Source: a virus. Taken from it: a stretch of DNA of 64,000 bases. The notes below the pieces were generated by a model. The model saw only the letters and a program-made list of their open reading frames with translations, was not told the DNA's origin and did no database searches. Positions within the stretch are counted from its first letter, which is position 1. Each line of letters begins with the position of its first letter. The stretch covers positions 1 through 64,000 of the IMG/VR virus record IMGVR_UViG_3300021963_004241. The stretch is one strand, 5' to 3'. Of this stretch, positions 13,988 through 54,183 are shown piece after piece. The position numbers and the translations under genes were made by a program.

Positions 13988-14003
13988 CTAAGGACTGGCT
14001 TTT
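13972..14003 (-). terminator. Rho-independent terminator after the 14022-14906 gene
   Basis: A 10 bp stem AAAGCCAGTC / GACTGGCTTT (14002-13993 with 13985-13976), loop of 7, followed on the minus strand by TTTATTTG. Confidence 0.85.
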
Positions 14004-14021
14004 GTTTACCAAATGTAATAA

Positions 14022-14906
14022 TTACTTTTGATTTTCTGATAGTACATCATACAATTGGAATTCTCCGCCGTATGACTCATATACTCTAGCTGCATATGCA
14101 TCTGCACGGATACCAGAACCAACTTTATTTGATGCTACTCGTTGTGCCCAATTCCAAAGTGCTGAGTCAACTGGATCGATCTGTTGCTGGCCGCCACTTT
14201 CTTTTACAATCTTTAGGCATTCGACAAAAGATAGTTTTGGTTGAACTGACTCAGCAACAACTCTCTTAGGAGTTTTTACAGATTCAGTTTTCTTACCACC
14301 GGCTTTTTTCTTCTTGCCGCCCATTTCGTCTTTGCCTAAACGACCTGCGATAACATCACCGCGTGTGACCTTATCATATGGCTTGGCATTATTGGCTAAG
14401 TTACCGTCGCCTTTACCTTCTTCCATTTTTTCGTCTTTCTTCTTAGCCATTGTTTTCTTATCTTCTTTCTTTTTAGCTTCGACCATTGCATTAAACTTTT
14501 GTTTGAATTCAGAACTTTCTTCGTCTTCAATTAATGCATCTACATCTACTTCTGTGCTTTCTGCTTTCTTCTTAGCGATCTTAGTTGCAGTAGCATACAT
14601 TACTGATTTGCCTTTGTCACCATAACGCTTTTCAAAGCCTTCTTTGTCTTTCTTCATGCTCTTAACAACTTCTTCCTTTTTCTTCTTTTCGGGAGTTGTT
14701 AATTTTTTCTCAACGACGGGTTGTCTGTCACTAATTCTGCGTCCTTCTTCAAGGACGTTAGACACACCAGCTAACACTCTCATTTGAGCGTCTTCGCTAA
14801 GTGCTACACGTTGTACAGGTTTTGCCTCTGTGGCTTTACCTTGCGGATTGAACACATTTGTTGGTTCAATTTCTTTAAGTTTCGATACTAGTTTGTGAAA
14901 GTCCAT
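14022..14906 (-). CDS. Lys/Glu-rich phage virion-type protein (possible head core protein)
   Basis: A 294-residue, very charged protein (long Lys/Glu tracts from about 70 to 210). It contains KSVMYATATKIAKKKAE, a motif that recurs in T4-like marine phages in putative prohead-core or internal proteins, and a folded C-terminus DPVDSALWNWAQRVA...YESYGGEFQLYDVL. The N-terminus MDFHKLVSKLKEIE ends in an L-x-E type site like that cut by T4 gp21. Scaffold or internal protein is my inference. It is last in the late operon, before a terminator. Confidence 0.6.
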   Translation of the reverse strand: MDFHKLVSKLKEIEPTNVFNPQGKATEAKPVQRVALSEDAQMRVLAGVSNVLEEGRRISDRQPVVEKKLTTPEKKKKEEVVKSMKKDKEGFEKRYGDKGKSVMYATATKIAKKKAESTEVDVDALIEDEESSEFKQKFNAMVEAKKKEDKKTMAKKKDEKMEEGKGDGNLANNAKPYDKVTRGDVIAGRLGKDEMGGKKKKAGGKKTESVKTPKRVVAESVQPKLSFVECLKIVKESGGQQQIDPVDSALWNWAQRVASNKVGSGIRADAYAARVYESYGGEFQLYDVLSENQK

Positions 14907-14918
14907 TGGCTTCTCCGT

Positions 14919-15287
14919 TTATTTCTTTCTACCTGCACAGTGCGCACGTTGGCTAAATCCTTTAGGATTGTTGCAGTTAATTGATTTTTTATACTTCTCG
15001 CTCCATTTTTCTTGTAGCTGAGTTTGTACTTTTTCTAATCTTGCTTCCTCAAAGCTTCTTGGTCCGCGATTGATCGCTTCACCTTTGGCTTTTTCATATT
15101 CTGTATACTGCACGACATTATTCAAATGATCGGCAGCAATAGTAATCTTTTCTTGTACCCAACCCATTAATTCTTCATTCTCGTCGATCATTTTCAAAAG
15201 TTTCACAGCATTTTTAGCGATGCTTAAAAGATCGCTTTTTGCCATTCTTCCTTCATGATCGTCTTTATGTTGAATTTCGAGGTCCAT
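14919..15287 (-). CDS. Conserved phage virion-associated protein
   Basis: A 122-residue protein. The helical block MAKSDLLSIAKNAVKLLKMI through WVQEKITIAADHLNNVVQYT and the C-terminal CNNPKGFSQRAHCAGRKK are recurrent modules in cyanophage and pelagiphage late proteins. Two starts are possible: ATG 15287, 4 nt after a late-type motif with no ribosome-binding site, or ATG 15245 (MAKSDLL) with GAAGGA upstream. Function unknown. Confidence 0.65.
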   Translation of the reverse strand: MDLEIQHKDDHEGRMAKSDLLSIAKNAVKLLKMIDENEELMGWVQEKITIAADHLNNVVQYTEYEKAKGEAINRGPRSFEEARLEKVQTQLQEKWSEKYKKSINCNNPKGFSQRAHCAGRKK

Positions 15288-15291
15288 ATCG

Positions 15292-15299
15292 TATTTATC
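15292..15299 (-). promoter_or_regulatory. Late-type promoter motif GATAAATA
   Basis: Minus-strand GATAAATA, 4 nt before the ATG at 15287. It matches the T4/cyanophage late -10 element (TATAAATA or NATAAATA). The spacing would give a leaderless transcript. Confidence 0.55.
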
Positions 15300-15558
15300 T
15301 CTTGACAGCGGCGCCTTGACCGAACAAACTAGTGCCTTGATCTAGTGCGTTTTTAGCTGTGCCGTCTTTGTTTTTAGGTTGTACAACTTTAGGCTGCGGA
15401 GGTGCTTTGGTTCCCGACTTACCACCCCAAGGACTACCGATATAGCTCTTTTTACCACGTGCTTTCCCGGGGCTGATATGCGGGTTCGGGACAGTTGCAA
15501 TATTGCCCGAACTTGTGCTTCCTGCGGTAGCTGATTCAACGATATCTTTAATTCTCAT
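15295..15558 (-). CDS. Small late protein with capsid-targeting-like N-terminus
   Basis: An 87-residue basic, Gly/Pro/Lys-rich protein. It starts MRIKDIVES, with IVE|S a good fit to the (I/L)-x-E site cut by T4-type prohead protease. The rest (PNPHISPGKARGKKSYIGSP) looks unstructured and DNA-binding. I infer an internal head protein. No enzyme motif is seen. Confidence 0.65.
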   Translation of the reverse strand: MRIKDIVESATAGSTSSGNIATVPNPHISPGKARGKKSYIGSPWGGKSGTKAPPQPKVVQPKNKDGTAKNALDQGTSLFGQGAAVKR

Positions 15559-15564
15559 AGTTTA

Positions 15565-16353
15565 TTATTTACCGTATTTTGAAAGATACTGGTAAAGTCC
15601 TTTTTTGACTCTGTTCCAGGCTGTTTCTTTGCTGTATTTTAAGAATCGCCCATAATATTCTATAGCTGCGTACAGAGCATTTAAGTTAGGTACTTGTACA
15701 ATCTTTCCGCCTATTGTTGCATAATCTTGGCGCTGTGCTTGTCTAAGAATATTGTCTAGATTTCCTAGACTATCCTTTCCAAATTTATTATAGATGTCGT
15801 TAGCAATTTGGCTAATCCAAGCATCTTTTTCCATGTTATCTAATGTGTAAAGATAATATTGATCTCTTTTAGTTAGCGCCTTAGGTGGAGTCTTTTTCCA
15901 AACACTAGTTTCTAGATCAAATACATCCTGATCATTTTTTGATTTTTTTATCTGTTGTGTGCGCTGACTAGCATGATTGAGCTCGTGAATTAATAGGGAA
16001 CTTAATCTGTCTATAAAGTTATTTGAAGTTTTTTCATCTGTAGGTGCGTGTGCTACATTAACTTCTACTGTGATTAAGTGTTTAATGGGATCGCCTGATA
16101 TTTCGTGTTCTGCTTCTAATGCAGAATATTGACTGTCCGGTCTATCTAACAATTTAGGTTTAATTGTTAGAGGTCTGCTGAGTGTAGCTTCTCTCCATTT
16201 AGTTAATTCTTCGCTCTTATTAAGATTTTTAAAAAACTTACCGTACCAATCTAGATCATTATTATACGAACCTATATTGGAAACAGCCTTAGCTATCCAG
16301 GGTCTTACCCAGGATGTTTCCATGCGTTCGATAATAAATTCACCGGCTCTCAT
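15565..16353 (-). CDS. Putative zinc metallopeptidase with capsid-targeting-like N-terminus
   Basis: A 262-residue protein starting MRAGEFIIERM. The motif SLLIHELNHASQ (about 127-138) is an H-E-x-x-H zincin signature; a downstream Glu in DNMEKDAW could be the third ligand. The N-terminus is shared with several neighbours and resembles the T4 capsid-targeting sequence, so the protease may be packaged in the head and delivered with DNA. Substrate unknown. It overlaps the next gene upstream by 4 bp. Confidence 0.68.
   Translation of the reverse strand: MRAGEFIIERMETSWVRPWIAKAVSNIGSYNNDLDWYGKFFKNLNKSEELTKWREATLSRPLTIKPKLLDRPDSQYSALEAEHEISGDPIKHLITVEVNVAHAPTDEKTSNNFIDRLSSLLIHELNHASQRTQQIKKSKNDQDVFDLETSVWKKTPPKALTKRDQYYLYTLDNMEKDAWISQIANDIYNKFGKDSLGNLDNILRQAQRQDYATIGGKIVQVPNLNALYAAIEYYGRFLKYSKETAWNRVKKGLYQYLSKYGK
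15566..15573 (-). promoter_or_regulatory. Late-type promoter motif GGTAAATA
   Basis: Minus-strand GGTAAATA within the last codons of the 15565-16353 gene, 7 nt before the ATG at 15558. No ribosome-binding site lies in between. Confidence 0.4.
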
Positions 16354-17264
16354 TTACTACGACCGCCTTTCATGTTGGCACACCAGTGATACATTTTAGC
16401 TTTTTCGCCTGAAGCGTTTTTTGCACGTTTACGTAGATCAGTCACAGAGCCCGAACAACTAGCACCTGCACGTTTTACTCGTCCTGGGCGACTTTTACCT
16501 TTTACTTTACCGTCTGCAAAATTCTCATTAGTCATTCCGAGGTTTGCCGATGACCAGGTTGTTCTTAAAATTTTACCTTGATATCTAATTTCAATATTGC
16601 ATCTTCCTAATTGATTTTTTTCACATATACCTATTATTAATTCAGATGCTTGATTTAACTGCGACTTAACATCGCCTTTAAATTTGCCTGTAAGATCAAG
16701 TTCTTTAAATTCGCCTTCTATTGATATACGTGCGATCATTCTATCTGGATCTGATTTATCCTGCGCTTGAGCAGCACTTCCTAATGCTGCTCCTGCAGCC
16801 GCAGCACCTCCGAATTTTAAGAAATCTCTTCTGCTTATAGCTTCATCAAATTCAACAGCCTGCATTTTTAAATACTGAGGATATTTTTTATTAAATGTCC
16901 TCATCATTTCTCCAGCTTTCTCGTGAGCTTCATTTTCTGTAGGACTTCCAGTTTTCCAACTGTTTTTGCCTAATCTACCTTCTAAGTCTTGTTTATAGTG
17001 AACTAGTTCGTGTGCTAATGTTCTAATGATATCGTTTGGATTTCGTTCTTCGATGTCTAACTCTATAGATTTGTATTCGTCACTATGATGATAGCAACCG
17101 AATGTTGGTTGATCGTGTTTGCTGACTACATCCTTTGAAAATTTTATTTCTGGAATACTAGGTAACTTGAGGAAAGATACGGCGAGTGGCATAAAATCTT
17201 CAATAGCATCTTCTAGAGTAAATTTATTTTCTGCATTTTCTATTATGAATTCTTTTGCTCTCAT
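16350..17264 (-). CDS. Putative zinc metallopeptidase with capsid-targeting-like N-terminus and internal Tat-like motif
   Basis: A 304-residue, three-part protein. It starts MRAKEFIIENAEN (FIIE|N). Residues about 75-125 hold a zincin: TLAHELVHYKQDLEGRL (H-E-x-x-H), then NEAHEKAG. Next comes ISRRDFLKFGGAAAAGAALG (about 143-162), a textbook twin-arginine consensus followed by a hydrophobic Ala/Gly segment ending AQAQ. The C-terminus SCSGSVTDLRKRAKNASGEK plus MYHWCANMKGG is a module found in many T4-like phage late proteins. An internal Tat motif is odd; it could act only after cleavage or be a membrane segment. Confidence 0.7.
   Translation of the reverse strand: MRAKEFIIENAENKFTLEDAIEDFMPLAVSFLKLPSIPEIKFSKDVVSKHDQPTFGCYHHSDEYKSIELDIEERNPNDIIRTLAHELVHYKQDLEGRLGKNSWKTGSPTENEAHEKAGEMMRTFNKKYPQYLKMQAVEFDEAISRRDFLKFGGAAAAGAALGSAAQAQDKSDPDRMIARISIEGEFKELDLTGKFKGDVKSQLNQASELIIGICEKNQLGRCNIEIRYQGKILRTTWSSANLGMTNENFADGKVKGKSRPGRVKRAGASCSGSVTDLRKRAKNASGEKAKMYHWCANMKGGRSK
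17247..17264. repeat. Capsid-targeting coding repeat, copy A
   Basis: 18 bp encoding MRAKEF on the minus strand; one mismatch to the copies at 17529-17546 and 19131-19148. Confidence 0.8.
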
Positions 17265-17267
17265 GGC

Positions 17268-17546
17268 TTAGTTGTCCTTATCTATTTCTAGATAGCCGTC
17301 TCTTATGTCTTGTAGTCCGTCTTTTAAGATAGCCCAAAAATAGTCACCGCCCGAATAACGTTGACTATAGTATTCATACATATATTCGAAGCCTGGATAA
17401 TCGTCAAATGTTCTAGTGATATTACTATCACCGTCCATGTTATCGATGTATGAAAGAAGTTCGTCGGCATCGTCAGCAGATAGCCCCCAATTATTATCTT
17501 TGGTAAACTCTTCTTCTTCCTCTATGACGAATTCTTTAGCTCTCAT
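17268..17546 (-). CDS. Acidic late protein with capsid-targeting-like N-terminus
   Basis: A 92-residue, strongly acidic protein beginning [19 protein letters not shown] is a possible prohead-protease site. The remainder (LSADDADELLSYIDNMDGDS, then aromatic EYMYEYYSQRYSGGDYFW) has no known motif. I infer an internal head protein; an acidic DNA-mimic role is conceivable but unproven. Confidence 0.65.
   Translation of the reverse strand: MRAKEFVIEEEEEFTKDNNWGLSADDADELLSYIDNMDGDSNITRTFDDYPGFEYMYEYYSQRYSGGDYFWAILKDGLQDIRDGYLEIDKDN
17529..17546. repeat. Capsid-targeting coding repeat, copy B
   Basis: 18 bp identical to 19131-19148. Between these two copies lie the mini-ORF, ErpA and PhyH genes, which lack the targeting sequence. 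Confidence 0.85.
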
Positions 17547-17632
17547 TAATGTTGTCCGTAAGGGTTCAAAGGACGATCTTCTTCGTCTTGCTGTTCTGGA
17601 TAAACAGGATATTGATCTTTATTTTCGTTCAT
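17546..17632 (-). CDS. 28-residue mini-protein
   Basis: ATG 17632 overlaps the ErpA stop (ATGA), and its TAA overlaps the next ATG (TAATG). The peptide is hydrophilic, acidic and proline-rich ([20 protein letters not shown]...). The exact fit between two coupled genes supports translation; function unknown. Confidence 0.5.
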
Positions 17633-17955
17633 ACTGAAAAGCTACTCCCACATCCACAAGTTGTTTGAGCATTTGGATTTTTAATTACAAATTGAGATCC
17701 TGAAAGATCTTCTTTATAATCAATCTCTGCACCTGCTAGGTACTGCATGCTCATAGAATCGACTACTACTTTCCAATTATCGTCTAACTGTATTTCGAAG
17801 TCATCGTCATTCTTTATTTCGTCAAATGTAAATCCGTAATTAAATCCCGAACATCCCCCGCCTTGTACAAATGTTCTTAACATAAGGGCTTTGTTATTTT
17901 CTTCTAATAACAAATCTATAACTTTATTTTTTGCAGAATCGGATATAGTAATCAT
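17629..17955 (-). CDS. A-type iron-sulphur carrier, ErpA-like
   Basis: A 108-residue A-type carrier that accepts Fe-S clusters from IscU and passes them to apo-proteins. The three cluster cysteines are present: Cys35 in GGGCSGFNY and Cys100, Cys102 in TTCGCGSSF. The ending [16 protein letters not shown] is nearer ErpA than IscA. It overlaps the PhyH gene and the mini-ORF by 4 bp each. A second A-type carrier and an IscU lie at 52.9-53.6 kb. Confidence 0.88.
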
Positions 17956-18779
17956 GATGTTTTTTCTTTAAGTCCTAGTCCCGGTAATTCGAAGCCGCTA
18001 TTTTTAATAAGTTCTACAAAATTATTAGATTGCCAATCAACTGAATTGTTCCAGATTTTTAAATCTTCGTTCCAATTTCCTGTAGGATCTTGTTCGTGTA
18101 ACAAATAATTATGTTCGTCGATTCCAGAAATCATAATGGTTGATTCAGGTGATACTTGATATGCTAGATCAGTATCAGTGGCTACAAAACAGAAAGAATA
18201 ACCATCTCTGAATATATTAGATTGATTTTCGTCTGATCCATGCAACATATATGGATGATGCATTAAAAACTGTCCAGGTGTAGTTTCAACGTAATCCACA
18301 GCATCGTCTGCGTTTTGTTTGTCAAAGATTATTTTATCGTTAACTGTTTTATACTTGTGTGAATCTCTTACATATTTTAAACAGCCCATTTCTTTAGTCG
18401 AGCCGGATAAAGTAATCCATACGGTCAATGCGCGAGTTTGATCTTTAAAATTCCAGTAGATGCCATCTCTGTGATAAGGAACTTGTTTCTTATTTCTTGG
18501 ATCTTTATTCCATACGTATGAATCATAACAAGAAAAATTCGGTCCTATGATTTTCTTTACATATTCTATAAGTGTGGGATGCTTTGAAAGTTTATTAATA
18601 AATGGAAATAAGAAGTTTGCTTTTCTTCGATAGTCTGAGTTCATCCAATCTATTTCTTGGATATGCCTATCTCTTTCAGAGATAAAATAATCAAGCTCAT
18701 CTGCCTCTAGAAAATTTACAGGACCGTAATACCCTTGTTGATCAAATACTTCTTTAATATTTTCAGATTGGAACAACAT
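17952..18779 (-). CDS. PhyH-family Fe(II)/2OG dioxygenase
   Basis: A 275-residue phytanoyl-CoA-dioxygenase-like protein. [11 protein letters not shown] (100-110) gives the H-x-D iron ligands (His103, Asp105). [19 protein letters not shown] gives the distal His180 and Arg191 for 2-oxoglutarate. Substrate unknown; small-molecule, sugar or nucleobase targets are all possible. It is joined by ATGA to the ErpA gene, and the pair sits inside the capsid-targeting gene run. Confidence 0.78.
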
Positions 18780-19148
18780 TTAAACTCCGTACTTGTTACG
18801 TTTTACATTAGCAAGTGGACTTGTCTTATTAATAATTTTATCGGGTAATTCTTCAGATCCCTTTCCAGTCCCGGTATCGAATTTAATACCCATTCTTTTA
18901 GCAGCAGCTTGTCTTATTTCTCGATCCCCGTCGGTGTAATCCACCATGGCAAAGTCGCTGCCGATAGGACCCTCGTCATATATATCGGATACATCTGGTG
19001 ACGGTGCCAATGCAACACCGAATCGATAGGCAAGGTACGGATGATTGTTGTTGTCTAGATCTCCAGAAGCTGTAAGATTCGGCATACTTTGTCTAGTACT
19101 TTTGCGTAACGGTTTCTTATTTTCGTTGATGAATTCTTTAGCTCTCAT
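18780..19148 (-). CDS. Late protein with capsid-targeting-like N-terminus
   Basis: A 122-residue protein starting MRAKEFINENKKP after AGGAGG. The block RKSTRQSMPNLTASGDLDNN with HPYLAYRFGVALAPSP is a recurring module in T4-like marine phage late proteins; I know no activity for it. Likely an internal or virion protein. Confidence 0.68.
   Translation of the reverse strand: MRAKEFINENKKPLRKSTRQSMPNLTASGDLDNNNHPYLAYRFGVALAPSPDVSDIYDEGPIGSDFAMVDYTDGDREIRQAAAKRMGIKFDTGTGKGSEELPDKIINKTSPLANVKRNKYGV
19131..19148. repeat. Capsid-targeting coding repeat, copy C
   Basis: 18 bp identical to 17529-17546, at the start of the 18780-19148 gene. Confidence 0.85.
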
Positions 19149-19455
19149 TTTTTCCTCCTACTGGTTTTTCTCCTGTTAGGTAAGGTAAACTAAACCAAAG
19201 TTGAAACCATTCTGGAGTGCCTGGCTTGATATTATTTTCTTTTTCTAATCTTTGCTTTTCCATTCCTGTTACGGAAACATTGCTGCCTTGATTTAACTGA
19301 GACTTGTATTCTGTTAATCTCGCTTGAGCGCCTAAGCCCCCAAGGTATTGCATTCTTTTTATTTCGTGAATGGGATCGTTAGGAGCAAGATAGCAATCGT
19401 CTGAGCTATCTTGATTGACAGAATTTTCAGATGTAATTTTATATTGTTTAATCAC
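19138..19455 (-). CDS. Conserved phage late protein, unknown function
   Basis: A 105-residue protein starting with GTG at 19455. It carries LAPNDPIHEIKRMQYLGGLG, a conserved block in T4-like marine phages, then KPGTPEWFQLWFSLPYLTGE. It overlaps both neighbours. No enzymatic motif is seen. Confidence 0.62.
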   Translation of the reverse strand: MIKQYKITSENSVNQDSSDDCYLAPNDPIHEIKRMQYLGGLGAQARLTEYKSQLNQGSNVSVTGMEKQRLEKENNIKPGTPEWFQLWFSLPYLTGEKPVGGKNES

Positions 19456-20362
19456 GATCTATCTCCATTCCGCCATGTAATTCATCTTGTATTTCATCCC
19501 AGGTTTCACCATAGCGATCTTTAAATTCTGCAACTATTTCGTTTATAATTTCGTCGAGATCTTCGGGATATAGATAATCTGATATTGAATAACCGGCATT
19601 AGTATCAGTTCTATCGGCTAAGATACGATTTTCACCGGTGTTGATATTTACTTGGAAATCTATCCAACCAGTTGGTCGTTCATCGTCGCCTTCGATTTCA
19701 ACATCTTCGCCGTAGAGTATGACTCCTTCGTCGGTATTTTCGATTCCATACCATCCCGAAGCACCTGGTATTTTAATTTCTTCTGCTGACTTAGCATCCT
19801 CAGTTACATCTTGTTGGACAAACTGCACATTTAGTTTGGCACTTTTCCATAATGGATTTTTAGGGTCCATTCTCTGTTGTAGTAGCCATATAGCAGATAC
19901 CCTGTGGGCACCATCTTCAAACTTACCGTTTAATACTATTGCTGGTGGTAACTTCGCTAAACTGTCTGGGTGATCCTTTAAGTAGGTAGCATATTCAATG
20001 ACCTTTTTTGTAACACCCCAACTGTAGTCTTTAGCGTCCCAATCATCAACTACATTATTATAATAAGGCACACCCGGTACAGATGATATAATATCTTTTA
20101 CAGTCATTTGGCGAGTTTGTATTTTAGCATCGGAGCCAAACTGTTTTGGAGCACCCGAACTCGGTCCTGGTTGAGGAACGCCTTCTGCAATCTTATCTGT
20201 AGCACAGGTTTCTTTTTCTACAGAAAACTCTTTTTCTGGAAACTTTGCTTTGAGGTGTTTAAGCATCGTAATAGCTTCCCAGCTGTCTTGATATTGAGCT
20301 GCCGGTTTACCATTTACGAACAAAATAAATTTAGAGCTTTCTTTTAATTCTTTTACTCTCAT
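19448..20362 (-). CDS. Late protein with capsid-targeting-like N-terminus and ParB-like motif
   Basis: A 304-residue protein from ATG 20362 (MRVKELKESSKF; LKE|S site). Longer frames extend into the upstream gene and lack this start. Residues about 160-185 (LPPAIVLNGKFEDGAHRVSA) match the ParB/sulfiredoxin-type strand with the D-G-x-H-R motif, used for nucleotide binding. The C-terminus is acidic. A packaged nucleotide-dependent enzyme is my inference. Confidence 0.62.
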   Translation of the reverse strand: MRVKELKESSKFILFVNGKPAAQYQDSWEAITMLKHLKAKFPEKEFSVEKETCATDKIAEGVPQPGPSSGAPKQFGSDAKIQTRQMTVKDIISSVPGVPYYNNVVDDWDAKDYSWGVTKKVIEYATYLKDHPDSLAKLPPAIVLNGKFEDGAHRVSAIWLLQQRMDPKNPLWKSAKLNVQFVQQDVTEDAKSAEEIKIPGASGWYGIENTDEGVILYGEDVEIEGDDERPTGWIDFQVNINTGENRILADRTDTNAGYSISDYLYPEDLDEIINEIVAEFKDRYGETWDEIQDELHGGMEIDRD

Positions 20363-20363
20363 T

Positions 20364-20990
20364 TTATTTTCTTGATTGTTTAGGGCCTTGTCTGGTTTTC
20401 CATTTTTTATCAGTGGAGCAATAATAACGGCCGTAACCTTCTGCAACATCCATTTCTTGTTTTTTATGTTTAACGTCGCCTTGCTTGGCAGCTTTCTTTT
20501 TGTCTTTATGTGCGCCGGCACCACTAGTCTTTTGATTCTTAGCAACAAAATTTCTAGGCTTTAATGCTTTTTTGGGATCTACAGATTCTCGCTTCCACTT
20601 ATGTTCGTCCATTTCGTATTGTAGTTCAAGGACTTGATTATCTAGATCTCTTAATAGATACTTGAAAGGTTCATCAATTCCGTAGACAGCCGATTCTAGA
20701 GCATTCATAGCTTCTTCAGCATCTGATATAGCAGATTCGATTTCGCTTTTATAACCTTTATCTTCGAAATCAATTTTTTCTGCCAACTGTCTAATCCTTA
20801 CAATGATATTAGAAACAGTGTCATCATATTTTATTTCGGTGGTGATTTTTTGAGCTTCTCGGGCAAGACTTTCTACAACATCTTTTTGTTGTTCAGCGAC
20901 AGCGATTAATTTTTTAAGTTCGTCAACGGGGCGTGGATAATTATCATCTGCCTCTTCTTTTACTTTATGTATAAATTCATTCAATCTCAT
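20364..20990 (-). CDS. Helical late protein with capsid-targeting-like N-terminus
   Basis: A 208-residue protein from ATG 20990 (MRLNEFIHKVKEE). The middle is predicted long helices (coiled coil, about 20-145). The end EGYGRYYCSTDKKWKTRQGP is a short module shared by many T4-like phage late proteins. Virion-internal role inferred. Confidence 0.62.
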   Translation of the reverse strand: MRLNEFIHKVKEEADDNYPRPVDELKKLIAVAEQQKDVVESLAREAQKITTEIKYDDTVSNIIVRIRQLAEKIDFEDKGYKSEIESAISDAEEAMNALESAVYGIDEPFKYLLRDLDNQVLELQYEMDEHKWKRESVDPKKALKPRNFVAKNQKTSGAGAHKDKKKAAKQGDVKHKKQEMDVAEGYGRYYCSTDKKWKTRQGPKQSRK

Positions 20991-21339
20991 TGTCGTAGTC
21001 GCCTTTATGTATATGCTTTGATTGCTCCTCTGCAAATCTTTCAGCTAATTTTTTTATTTCGTCTTCGTTAAATATTTCATCTTTATGATCCATTAGATCG
21101 AATTCTCTGCAATATGCTTCTGCACATTTCTGCAAAGGAACTATATAGTGTGTAAAAGATTCTGGATGATCCGGAGCAACCAGATGGTGCTTTAGGGCAG
21201 GGAAGATATGATTGCTCAGCATCTTATCGTTGTTATCTATCCAGAATTTTAAATCGTTCACATAATCGACATCTTTGTCAAATTTTTTATCTTTGACATC
21301 GTCAACACCGGGCACGGAAAACAATTCCATTAATTTCAT
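20977..21339 (-). CDS. Late phage protein, unknown function
   Basis: A 120-residue protein starting MKLMELFSVPGVDD, a weaker version of the shared N-terminus. The rest is a conserved-looking helical domain (LKFWIDNNDKMLSNHIFPAL...PLQKCAEAYCREFDL). It overlaps the downstream gene by 14 bp, and its ATG overlaps the upstream stop. Confidence 0.6.
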   Translation of the reverse strand: MKLMELFSVPGVDDVKDKKFDKDVDYVNDLKFWIDNNDKMLSNHIFPALKHHLVAPDHPESFTHYIVPLQKCAEAYCREFDLMDHKDEIFNEDEIKKLAERFAEEQSKHIHKGDYDNEIE

Positions 21340-22298
21340 TACCAGCTCCTACAAGACCAGTAACGTGCTTTCCAACGTGGACCTGGATTCTTACAATTGT
21401 GTCTTGCACGGAATGATTTTCTACGTGCAGGATTTGATTTTTTAATACGCATCTTCTTATCGCCAAAGTTTACTTTGACGATATTGCCATTTGGTTTGCG
21501 CACATATACTTTTGATTTCTTGACATCCCCTGCCATTTTCTTACCTAAGGGGACTTCTCTACCTTGATATTTTGCTTCGTCGACATCTAGATCTTCTGGC
21601 AATTTACCTTTTGGTCCGGTGATTTTTTCGTCTTGATCTGGATTATTCCCAGCAGTATGCCATCCACCTTTGGTTGTTTGGCCCTTGGCCATTTGCTTAT
21701 ACTTTTCGGGGTTAGCAGTCGGTGTTGCTTTTTTACTGCGACTTGCTAGTTCATCACTACTACGATCTTTTGCACTTTTATCTTTTTCTTTATGGAAGTA
21801 GAAATATTCTCCTAATTGATCTTCCCCTATCTTTTTGCAAGAGCCTTTTTCGCCGCGAGCTTTTCCTGGTACTTTTCTATGACCCTTCCAGCATTTATCG
21901 TAAATTTTACTATTACCGTGTTGTTCTCCCTCGACTATTTCGCCTTCGTCGAAAGTAAACCCGCTATCTTCGAGGAATCTTAAACTAGCATCATCTAGTT
22001 CAATAACGATTCCGTCTTCTAAGAAATCAACGATCTCTGTTCCGATTTCAAAATCTTCTGAAATGCTGATGCCAAATGCATCGCCCATTTCGAATACACC
22101 AGCAGCTTTAGCTTCTTTTTCAAGATCTGCTCTGCGCTGATCGATAGCTTTGGTAATATCGGGTTCTTTTGAAGCAGCAGGATCGTTTTCTAGGTCGTCC
22201 AGTGCTTGGCTTTTTGCTTGATAGTCACCCTTGGGATCCTTTGGATTCAGGGCAGTTTCATTGACGATAGCGTCTAATTTTGATAATAGGTCTCTCAT
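21339..22298 (-). CDS. Late virion-type protein with C-terminal basic Cys module
   Basis: A 319-residue protein. The N-terminus MRDLLSKLDAIVNETAL has an IVNE|T site. The middle holds CWKGHRKVPGKARGEKGSCK, and the C-terminus GDKKMRIKKSNPARRKSFRA with HNCKNPGPRWKARYWSC, both modules seen in head-associated proteins of T4-like marine phages. The basic tail suggests DNA or capsid contact. Prohead core or internal protein is my inference. A late motif lies 25 nt upstream. Confidence 0.65.
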   Translation of the reverse strand: MRDLLSKLDAIVNETALNPKDPKGDYQAKSQALDDLENDPAASKEPDITKAIDQRRADLEKEAKAAGVFEMGDAFGISISEDFEIGTEIVDFLEDGIVIELDDASLRFLEDSGFTFDEGEIVEGEQHGNSKIYDKCWKGHRKVPGKARGEKGSCKKIGEDQLGEYFYFHKEKDKSAKDRSSDELASRSKKATPTANPEKYKQMAKGQTTKGGWHTAGNNPDQDEKITGPKGKLPEDLDVDEAKYQGREVPLGKKMAGDVKKSKVYVRKPNGNIVKVNFGDKKMRIKKSNPARRKSFRARHNCKNPGPRWKARYWSCRSW

Positions 22299-22322
22299 AG
22301 TATCTTCCAGAAGATGATACTA

Positions 22323-52652: not shown

Positions 52653-52940
52653 ATGTTCTTAGATATTGAGACAGTCGTTTCGGAATATAAACGACCAAGC
52701 AAATTAGGCAATGAGCACACCTACACGCGAACTAAAACTGTCGCAGTGTTTAGGTGTGATAATTGTAATGAAATCTTTAAAAGAGATCTAAAGAAGATTG
52801 ATCGCAAACGATTAAGCAACAACTACTTTCACGTGTGCTCAAACTGCGATGCCAAGAGATTTGCCCAAAGAAAAGGTGTAGAGCAAAAGAATATATGGAA
52901 TTTGCCGGCTAGCAGCAATTTACCTGTGGGAAAATATTAG
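52653..52940 (+). CDS. Zinc-finger phage protein
   Basis: A 95-residue plus-strand protein with two C-x2-C pairs: FRCDNCNEIFKRDL and VCSNCDAKRFAQR. The N-terminus MFLDIETVVSEYKRPSKLGN is conserved in T4-like marine phages. Likely DNA or RNA binding. No ribosome-binding site is visible before the ATG. It converges on iscA with a 4 bp overlap. Confidence 0.72.
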   Translation: MFLDIETVVSEYKRPSKLGNEHTYTRTKTVAVFRCDNCNEIFKRDLKKIDRKRLSNNYFHVCSNCDAKRFAQRKGVEQKNIWNLPASSNLPVGKY

Positions 52941-53257
52941 ATCCTAAAAGATTCTCCACACCCGCATCGATCTTTTTCTAAAGGATTTATAAAGTCGAAC
53001 CCTTCGTTTAGCCCGTTACGTTTCCAATCCATTGTTAGTCCTTCTAAAAACGTAAGACTTTTTGGATCTACGAATACGTGTACTCCGTAGCTCACAAAGC
53101 TAATATCTTCTAATCTAACGGAATCTACGTATTCTAAAGCGTAGGCATACCCGCTGCAACCGGTAGTTTTAACTCCGATTCGGATACCTAATCCTTTGCC
53201 TCTGCGTTCTATTTGTTGTTTTACTTTATCGGCTGCTAACTCAGTCAGTGATATCAT
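52937..53257 (-). CDS. iscA: A-type iron-sulphur carrier, IscA-like
   Basis: A 106-residue IscA fold. Cys34 in TTGCSGYAY and Cys98, Cys100 in DRCGCGESF are the cluster ligands. MISLTELAADKVKQQIERRG is the typical N-terminus. It overlaps iscU by 17 bp in an iscU-iscA order, as in bacterial isc operons. It takes clusters from the scaffold to client proteins. Confidence 0.92.
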   Translation of the reverse strand: MISLTELAADKVKQQIERRGKGLGIRIGVKTTGCSGYAYALEYVDSVRLEDISFVSYGVHVFVDPKSLTFLEGLTMDWKRNGLNEGFDFINPLEKDRCGCGESFRI

Positions 53258-53627
53258 GTTTCTTTTTGTAGTCTTCTATGGCTGCTTTAATTGCGTCTTC
53301 TGCTAGGATAGAACAATGTATTTTAACCGGAGGGAGCGCAAGCTCTTCTGCAATCTGACTATTCTTAATCTGTGTTGCTTGGTCAAGCGTTTTGCCCTTA
53401 ACCCATTCAGTGACCAATGAACTGCTCGCAATAGCACTTCCGCAACCATAAGTTTTAAACTTAGCATCTTCGATAATTCCTTGATTATTAACTTTGATTT
53501 GCAATTTCATTACATCACCACAGGCAGGTGCACCGACCATTCCTGTGCCAATAGTATCATCTATTTCGAACTTGCCCACATTTCGTGGATTTTCATAATG
53601 ATCAATTACTTTTTCAGAATATGCCAT
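53241..53627 (-). CDS. iscU: Iron-sulphur cluster scaffold IscU
   Basis: A 128-residue scaffold on which Fe-S clusters are built. All functional residues are kept: Cys36 and Asp38 (PACGD), Cys62 (TYGCGSA), His104 and Cys105 (KIHCS), and the HscA-binding LPPVK (98-102). The N-terminus YSEKVIDHYENPRNVGKF is canonical. It needs a cysteine desulphurase, absent here, so host IscS is implied. It lies 2 bp from the SOD gene. Confidence 0.95.
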   Translation of the reverse strand: MAYSEKVIDHYENPRNVGKFEIDDTIGTGMVGAPACGDVMKLQIKVNNQGIIEDAKFKTYGCGSAIASSSLVTEWVKGKTLDQATQIKNSQIAEELALPPVKIHCSILAEDAIKAAIEDYKKKHDITD

Positions 53628-53628
53628 A

Positions 53629-54183
53629 TTAAACTCCTAGTCTAGTATTAACAACATCCCAATCGATTATTCTCCAAATATTTGATAGGTATTTGGCCTT
53701 ATCTTGTTGATAATCTAATGCCCAGGCGTGTTCCCAAGCATCTATCAACAGAGCAATCTTCATCGTGTTTTTGTATTCGTGATTGTGTATGGTATGCAAG
53801 TCTCCAGCGGTGTCCATGTAGATCCAATTTGATCCTTGTGCTGCCATAAACTCTTTTTCAAATGCTTTTTTAAATTCTTCAAAGCTTCCATATTTTTCTT
53901 CGATTAAATCCTTGCTTGCACCAATAGCTTTATTTGCAGCTCTTGGGGGAGTTAGATTATTGAAAAATAAATTATGAAGGACAGCACCTCCGTAGTTAAA
54001 ATCCGGGTCGCCTTCACCTTTATTATATCTCTCTGAATACTTAGAAGCAAGCCCATCGTAATGGTATTTTATAGTTGCTTCGCTCATAACGGGATCAAGC
54101 TCATCTTTTTTAAATTTGAGCTTATCTTGTTTTAATTCTCGTTGATCTTTAGATTCTGTTAAACTTTTAATAAAATGTAGCAT
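53629..54183 (-). CDS. Fe/Mn superoxide dismutase, with N-terminal extension
   Basis: A 184-residue SOD. The four metal ligands are present: His41 (IKYHYDG), His70 (AVLHNLFF), Asp148 and His152 (DAWEHAWALDY). It removes superoxide. The segment between the first two His is about 18 residues shorter than in bacterial SOD. The first 22 residues (MLHFIKSLTESKDQREL...) precede the normal start and contain LTE|S, a fit to the prohead-protease site, so the enzyme might be packaged. This last point is speculative. Confidence 0.85.
   Translation of the reverse strand: MLHFIKSLTESKDQRELKQDKLKFKKDELDPVMSEATIKYHYDGLASKYSERYNKGEGDPDFNYGGAVLHNLFFNNLTPPRAANKAIGASKDLIEEKYGSFEEFKKAFEKEFMAAQGSNWIYMDTAGDLHTIHNHEYKNTMKIALLIDAWEHAWALDYQQDKAKYLSNIWRIIDWDVVNTRLGV

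Follow-up and report, generated by a model that had tools for sequence, protein, structure and literature searches.

A mid-protein Tat-like segment behind a proposed prohead-protease site in a mosaic protein of an uncultured phage

The window, a 64,000-nucleotide stretch of viral DNA (positions 1 to 64,000 of the IMG/VR record IMGVR_UViG_3300021963_004241), encodes a 304-aa protein that, as read from its sequence, is a mosaic of a short N-terminal tag, a zincin-like domain, a Tat module in mid-protein and a C-terminal module (Table 1). We consider it probable that this protein is a T4-type head-cargo polyprotein in which the head protease uncovers the export signals, so that export would take place in the next host. 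Given that the mid-protein arrangement recurs in dozens of uncultured phages, phages may deliver proteins that are exported by the new host. Chances appear even that this reflects a widespread two-step route, in which head-packed, injected proteins would carry internal, silent signals uncovered by the prohead protease, and the newly infected cell would export them via Tat or Sec to the envelope before or while the first phage genes are expressed.

Table 1. The 304-aa gene, its proposed modules and sites, and tagged neighbouring genes (positions in the window; a slash marks a proposed cut)
Feature	Position	Strand	Basis
304-aa gene: tag, zincin, Tat module and C-terminal module	16350..17264	-	ORF reading, Pfam, PHROG
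N-terminal tag MRAKEFIIE, residues 1-9; capsid-targeting-like, ends in hydrophobic-x-Glu	17238..17264	-	common to neighbouring genes; compare T4 IPI
Zincin-like metallopeptidase domain, residues about 17-127	16884..17216	-	PHROG matches; folded in model
HELVH zinc-binding motif, residues 85-89	16998..17012	-	kept in relatives
Proposed prohead-protease site 1, F-D-E/A, residues 139-141	16842..16850	-	hydrophobic-x-Glu before RR in relatives
Tat signal AISRRDFLKFGGAAAAGAALGSAAQA, residues 142-167; signal peptidase predicted to cut behind AQA	16764..16841	-	Pfam PF10518
Proposed exported domain, residues 168-246; predicted bbabb fold	16527..16763	-	23-ORF family, all behind a signal
Proposed protease site 2, T-N-E/N, residues 245-247	16524..16532	-	62 proteins with an equivalent junction
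C-terminal module NFADG...YHWCANMKGGRSK, residues 248-304; elsewhere a stand-alone gene	16353..16523	-	relatives
Next gene, 4-base overlap; tag MRAGEFIIE, second zincin-like protein (HELNH)	15565..16353	-	ORF, Pfam
Preceding gene; tag MRAKEFVIE and a domain that in L011 occurs fused within a polyprotein with a Sec signal	17268..17546	-	
Tagged 87-aa gene, MRIKDIVE/SATAGSTSSGNIATV, beginning MRIKDIVESATAGSTSSGNIATV	15295..15558	-	

Read from its N-terminus, the open reading frame gives MRAKEFIIE, HELVH, VEFDEA, SRRDFLK (residues 144-150), an Ala/Gly run to AQAQ and ENFADG...YHWCANMKGGRSK, confirming the order of elements described in the initial annotation; between HELVH and the C-terminal module the sequence includes VEFDEAISRRDFLKFGGAAAAGAALGSAAQAQ. 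In a profile search the zincin half matched PHROG 16532, 10499 and 87 ('metallo-protease', E 2e-4), and Pfam gave a weak metallopeptidase similarity N-terminal to the Tat segment. Besides HELVH, a downstream E-N-x-A, which would provide the acidic ligand of a zincin, is conserved in relatives of this putative metallopeptidase. In the predicted structure, the zincin and a second domain are connected by the Tat segment (residues 133-170), a linker modelled with low confidence, and another linker spans residues 240-270. Relatives and predicted structure together show several modules in one chain. The C-terminal module, which the initial annotation had counted as part of the Tat-bearing half, is indeed present but forms a distinct module behind a Glu junction of its own; in many viral contigs it constitutes an independent gene (MRASEFVIENFADG..., 66 aa).

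Residues 143-162 match the Pfam family TAT_signal (PF10518) at 30 bits (cut-off 22.7; E 4e-7). SRRDFLK agrees with the S/T-R-R-x-F-L-K motif of Tat signal peptides, and it is followed by a weakly hydrophobic core and an AxA signal-peptidase site (FGGAAAAGAALGSAAQA/Q). In the primary product the segment lies at residues 142-167 rather than at the N-terminus; as it would become N-terminal only after the inferred cut, we regard it as Tat-like and not yet as a Tat signal peptide. The term 'perfect', originally applied to the twin-arginine motif, is fair for the Tat motif itself but not for the proposed cleavage site FDE/A, which is not a strict L/I-x-E. Conservation of the RR pair had been named beforehand as a check, and the pair is kept in relatives retaining the segment. 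Furthermore, the combination of RR, a hydrophobic core and AxA was met again in proteins of unrelated context. The closest of these is a cytidyltransferase-like protein (L081), inside which the window's Tat module sits with 59% identity in a homology search. A chance match was ruled out by the Pfam score together with this recurrence. A TAT_signal profile search of the whole 111-kb record gave no match besides that in the 304-aa gene.

Comparison with the close relative L001 revealed the gain or loss of a complete module. The zincin of L001 is 76% identical to that of the window and its C-terminal module is the same, and the Tat module is absent exactly. L001 joins the zincin directly to the C-terminal module (YLKSQAVEFNENFADG, junction VEFNENFADG); in the window the Tat module is placed between flanks matching those of L001 (YLKMQAVEFDEAISRR...GMTNENFADG). 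The DNA identity of the two is 74% before the insertion and 79% after it.

A search for the same architecture in other phages, as the initial annotation had called for, found the mid-protein Tat arrangement in many of them. Similar Tat segments, always directly after a Glu site, are present in L018, L009 and L012, and the same Tat segment plus domain appears in further contexts, each time right behind a hydrophobic-x-Glu (hxE) site (ELEE/DLSRR, SLEE/ITRR and VLEE/MDRR). In L123 the tag leads directly into the Tat segment (MRIHEIINE/DISRRGFLKG). In 33 records selected regardless of Glu, the TAT_signal profile gave five matches, all of them internal and all behind a Glu site. We also used a DNA pattern encoding RRxFL[KR]GxGAA, with no requirement for Glu, to scan viral contigs, and counted hxE where the Glu lay 3-5 residues before RR. 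The resulting 60 non-redundant viral sites have a median of 135 residues upstream of RR and hxE in 51 cases, versus a median of 15 residues and hxE in 3 of the 70 Tat signals that the same pattern picked from cellular genomes (Fisher p 5e-23, which overstates the difference since the viral sites are related and not independent). Counted by cargo family, hxE precedes the twin Arg in 29 of 36, and the upstream neighbours fall into 52 families. Five internal viral RR sites are without a Glu site. RR is present in 64/64 cassette-like sequences among the loci examined, a count partly biased by how the loci were found. A scan for the lysine variant returned four stretches, none a Glu-preceded cassette, and is a weak control because most cassettes have CGN as their first Arg codon.

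One to three copies of the cassette were detected by profile search in 16 of 23 records. Many of the viral sites have codons in common, CGT-AGA occurring in 48 of 76, and they look like a single cassette that is spreading. The sequence QGVAEGS(L)xE, which itself holds two hxE sites, recurs between modules in L081, L086 and L093-L112 and looks like a recombination linker. Six other loci (L316, L317, L161, L142, L164 and L166) have an internal RR or KRR plus a hydrophobic stretch with no Glu site or clear AxA; some of these stretches follow GGRxGFxxG repeats, and they may span the membrane as parts of ejection proteins from another phage type. Among cultured phages, no match was found to the Tat module, the C-terminal module or the tag-plus-Tat protein L123, and the L095 protein had cyanophage matches only via an unrelated downstream module.

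The Glu junctions themselves have the appearance of protease sites. At 62 different junctions upstream of the NFADG module, P1 is Glu in all 62 and P3 is hydrophobic (V, I, M, L, Y or F) in 53, and P2 and P4 are variable. The P1 Glu may belong to the module itself; it is the constrained P3 between the free P2 and P4 that makes these junctions look like a protease site. In T4, gp21 cuts after L/I-x-E, and the capsid-targeting sequence has a role in head proteins (PMC9026906). As read from NC_000866, T4 IPI begins MKTFKEF and has ITE/A, which MRAKEFIIE resembles as a short N-terminal tag ending at a Glu site with a putative role in targeting. Within the 304-aa protein, FIIE after the tag fits L/I-x-E and both FDE/A and TNE/N are off-consensus; the sites of relatives come closer. 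A gp21-family protease was found in 10 of 24 carrier records searched and gp23 in the same 10, among 11 searched for gp23; the carrier gp23 N-termini contain ..YLxE/SATAG or a close variant at the expected place. Both gp21 and gp23 are absent from the gene's own 111-kb record, probably because this record is a fragment. The frequency of hxE before the twin Arg in viral relative to cellular sites (51/60 versus 3/70) points to the prohead protease as the likely cutter.

From these comparisons we infer how the protein may be packaged, cleaved, ejected and exported, and what its final role may be. Initially, the N-terminal tag would take the protein into the prohead core, like the capsid-targeting sequence of T4 internal proteins. 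As long as the chain is intact, the Tat signal lies within it and is presumably silent, so that the protein would remain in the producing cell and enter the head. The prohead protease would then cut behind hxE at the module borders, namely after the tag, at FDE/A and at TNE/N, releasing the zincin, the Tat-bearing small domain and the C-terminal module, and the Tat signal would thereby become N-terminal. Upon infection, the pieces would accompany the DNA into the new host, whose Tat machinery would move the folded domain of ~8 kDa to the membrane or periplasm. Finally, the exported domain would act early, perhaps in envelope modification or in the exclusion of competing phages.

The candidate exported domain (residues 168-246) is predicted to fold as bbabb with a pLDDT of 82. 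Its family comprises 23 ORFs among the loci examined, and all 23 copies stand behind a signal, which is Tat in 15 and Sec-like in 8; the latter comprises hxE, GWKSK and AAGAALAAANLLGSPAQA. Taken alone, the Sec-like segments show a weaker enrichment, with hxE in 10/21 against a background of 20%. The best viral fold match of the domain is A0A6J5T2Q7 (E 2.7e-4, TM 0.72), an uncultured Caudovirales protein to which UniProt assigns a Tat signal by name, through automatic annotation only. Fold search against the PDB gave no significant match (best E 0.022), and no Pfam family was found for the window's copy; a weak profile match to a PDB periplasmic protein (E 0.002) was given no weight. Kinship of the L009 and L012 domain with the window's domain was not supported by comparison. 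In L090 and L091, a different signal-borne domain is present without any signal.

Several other domains travel behind such signals. A TonB C-terminal domain is the cargo behind an internal Tat signal in L121, L104 and L163, and the TonB_2 matches of the three proteins have E values of 7e-18, 3e-19 and 1e-18. TonB serves some phages for entry, which makes this cargo suggestive of a possible block on TonB-dependent entry of rival phages. Peptidase_M48 and LysM plus SLT (transglycosylase) were also found as cargo, and most cargo tested had no Pfam match. Judged by their domain assignments, the TonB C-terminus, the M48 peptidase and LysM plus transglycosylase are cargo of a periplasm- or envelope-acting type.

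A membrane-spanning helix used for ejection, of the conduit or DNA-entry anchor type, in which RR would be an incidental positive charge, is a rather unlikely explanation of the Tat segment. The segment is hydrophobic and in the structural model lies in a flexible linker, and L316, L317 and L161 offer internal RR or KRR stretches with neither Glu site nor AxA; however, the window's segment is short and Ala/Gly rich, and the full SRRxFLK is kept. The signal-peptidase-like AxA ends, the replacement of the segment by a Sec-type signal before the same domain and the periplasmic type of several domains behind it (TonB_2, LysM plus SLT) render a membrane segment for injection, as also considered in the initial annotation, less favoured. 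Quite unlikely is export in the producing cell, either of the uncut protein or of an internally cut or translated fragment, with no role as head cargo. Translation from Met134, ~10 residues before RR, would yield an ordinary Tat precursor, and L130, L133 and L150 carry a Tat signal at the very N-terminus. Against this, no Shine-Dalgarno-like sequence is evident by eye before Met134, an in-frame ATG within 30 aa is lacking at 23 of the 60 viral sites (19 of these 23 have hxE), and in their tags and Glu junctions the proteins look like T4 head cargo. An internal start at Met134 was therefore rejected as a general cause, given the missing Shine-Dalgarno-like sequence and the many relatives without a nearby ATG.

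We judge it very unlikely that the Tat stretch merely travels along passively, as a linker cassette prone to recombination and with no role in export. Shared codons and the recurring QGVAEGSLEE linker do suggest recombinational spread, and the signal-free L090 and L091 fit such a cassette, but the invariant RR (subject to the bias noted above), the swap with Sec-like signals and the 23/23 association with one domain family speak against it. Least likely of all is cutting by the zincin half instead of the prohead protease. HELVH does lie in the same chain, and zincin auto-processing has been proposed for polyvalent proteins (PMC5512222), but hxE junctions occur in many proteins that have no zincin, and no zincin of this type is known to us to cut specifically at Glu.

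The preferred reading, head cargo with signals unmasked by the prohead protease, likens these proteins to T4 IPI, IPII, IPIII and Alt in their N-terminal tag, Glu-specific junctions and small folded cargo, and T4-type head genes occur in the carriers. Unlike the T4 internal proteins, they have several modules and multiple Glu junctions, some with Tat or Sec-like signals; no comparable export-signal arrangement was found described for T4. The polyvalent proteins of phages and conjugative elements are similarly mosaic and multidomain, with zincin domains and proposed delivery with DNA, but their processing is assigned to zincins and not to the prohead protease (PMC5512222); a term search of that study found no mention of signal peptides or periplasm (Iyer et al. 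2017, PMC5512222). The giant-phage head proteins phiKZ gp175 and SPN3US gp245 are likewise ejected and have one or more sites at which gp21-related proteases cut behind x-x-Glu; the difference is that this cut removes a propeptide without exposing an export signal (PMC10052503). A search of the open-access literature turned up no account of export signals in substrates of a prohead protease, and the novelty of export signals in head cargo is provisional. T4-type injected head proteins are known to act in the cytoplasm. If the proposed reading is true, the capsid protease would time the activation of host export signals, virion proteins would reach the periplasm early, and a possible route would exist to block rival phages or remodel the envelope early. 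A large number of unnamed proteins from uncultured phages would also gain a functional class, and hxE followed by a signal would be a sequence rule for finding injected, envelope-acting effectors.

For two forms of the T4-type late promoter, the window holds fewer matches than expected by chance, an uninformative result. After its tag, the 87-aa gene product is nearly identical to the stretch behind the proposed major-capsid-protein cleavage site in the carriers L187-L197. The tagged genes form a cluster at about 14000..22300 (-); basic C-terminal modules that contain Cys, such as NCNNPKGFSQRAHCAGRKK, YGRYYCSTDKKWKTRQGPKQ and CKNPGPRWKARYWSCRSW, are shared among them and recur in other mosaic phage proteins. 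The minus strand of the window also carries Fe-S assembly genes at 17629..17955, 52937..53257, 53241..53627 and 53629..54183, the first confirmed by Pfam Fe-S_biosyn and the last three assigned by eye; the set consists of two A-type-carrier-like proteins and one IscU/NifU-like protein, adjoining a superoxide-dismutase-like protein.
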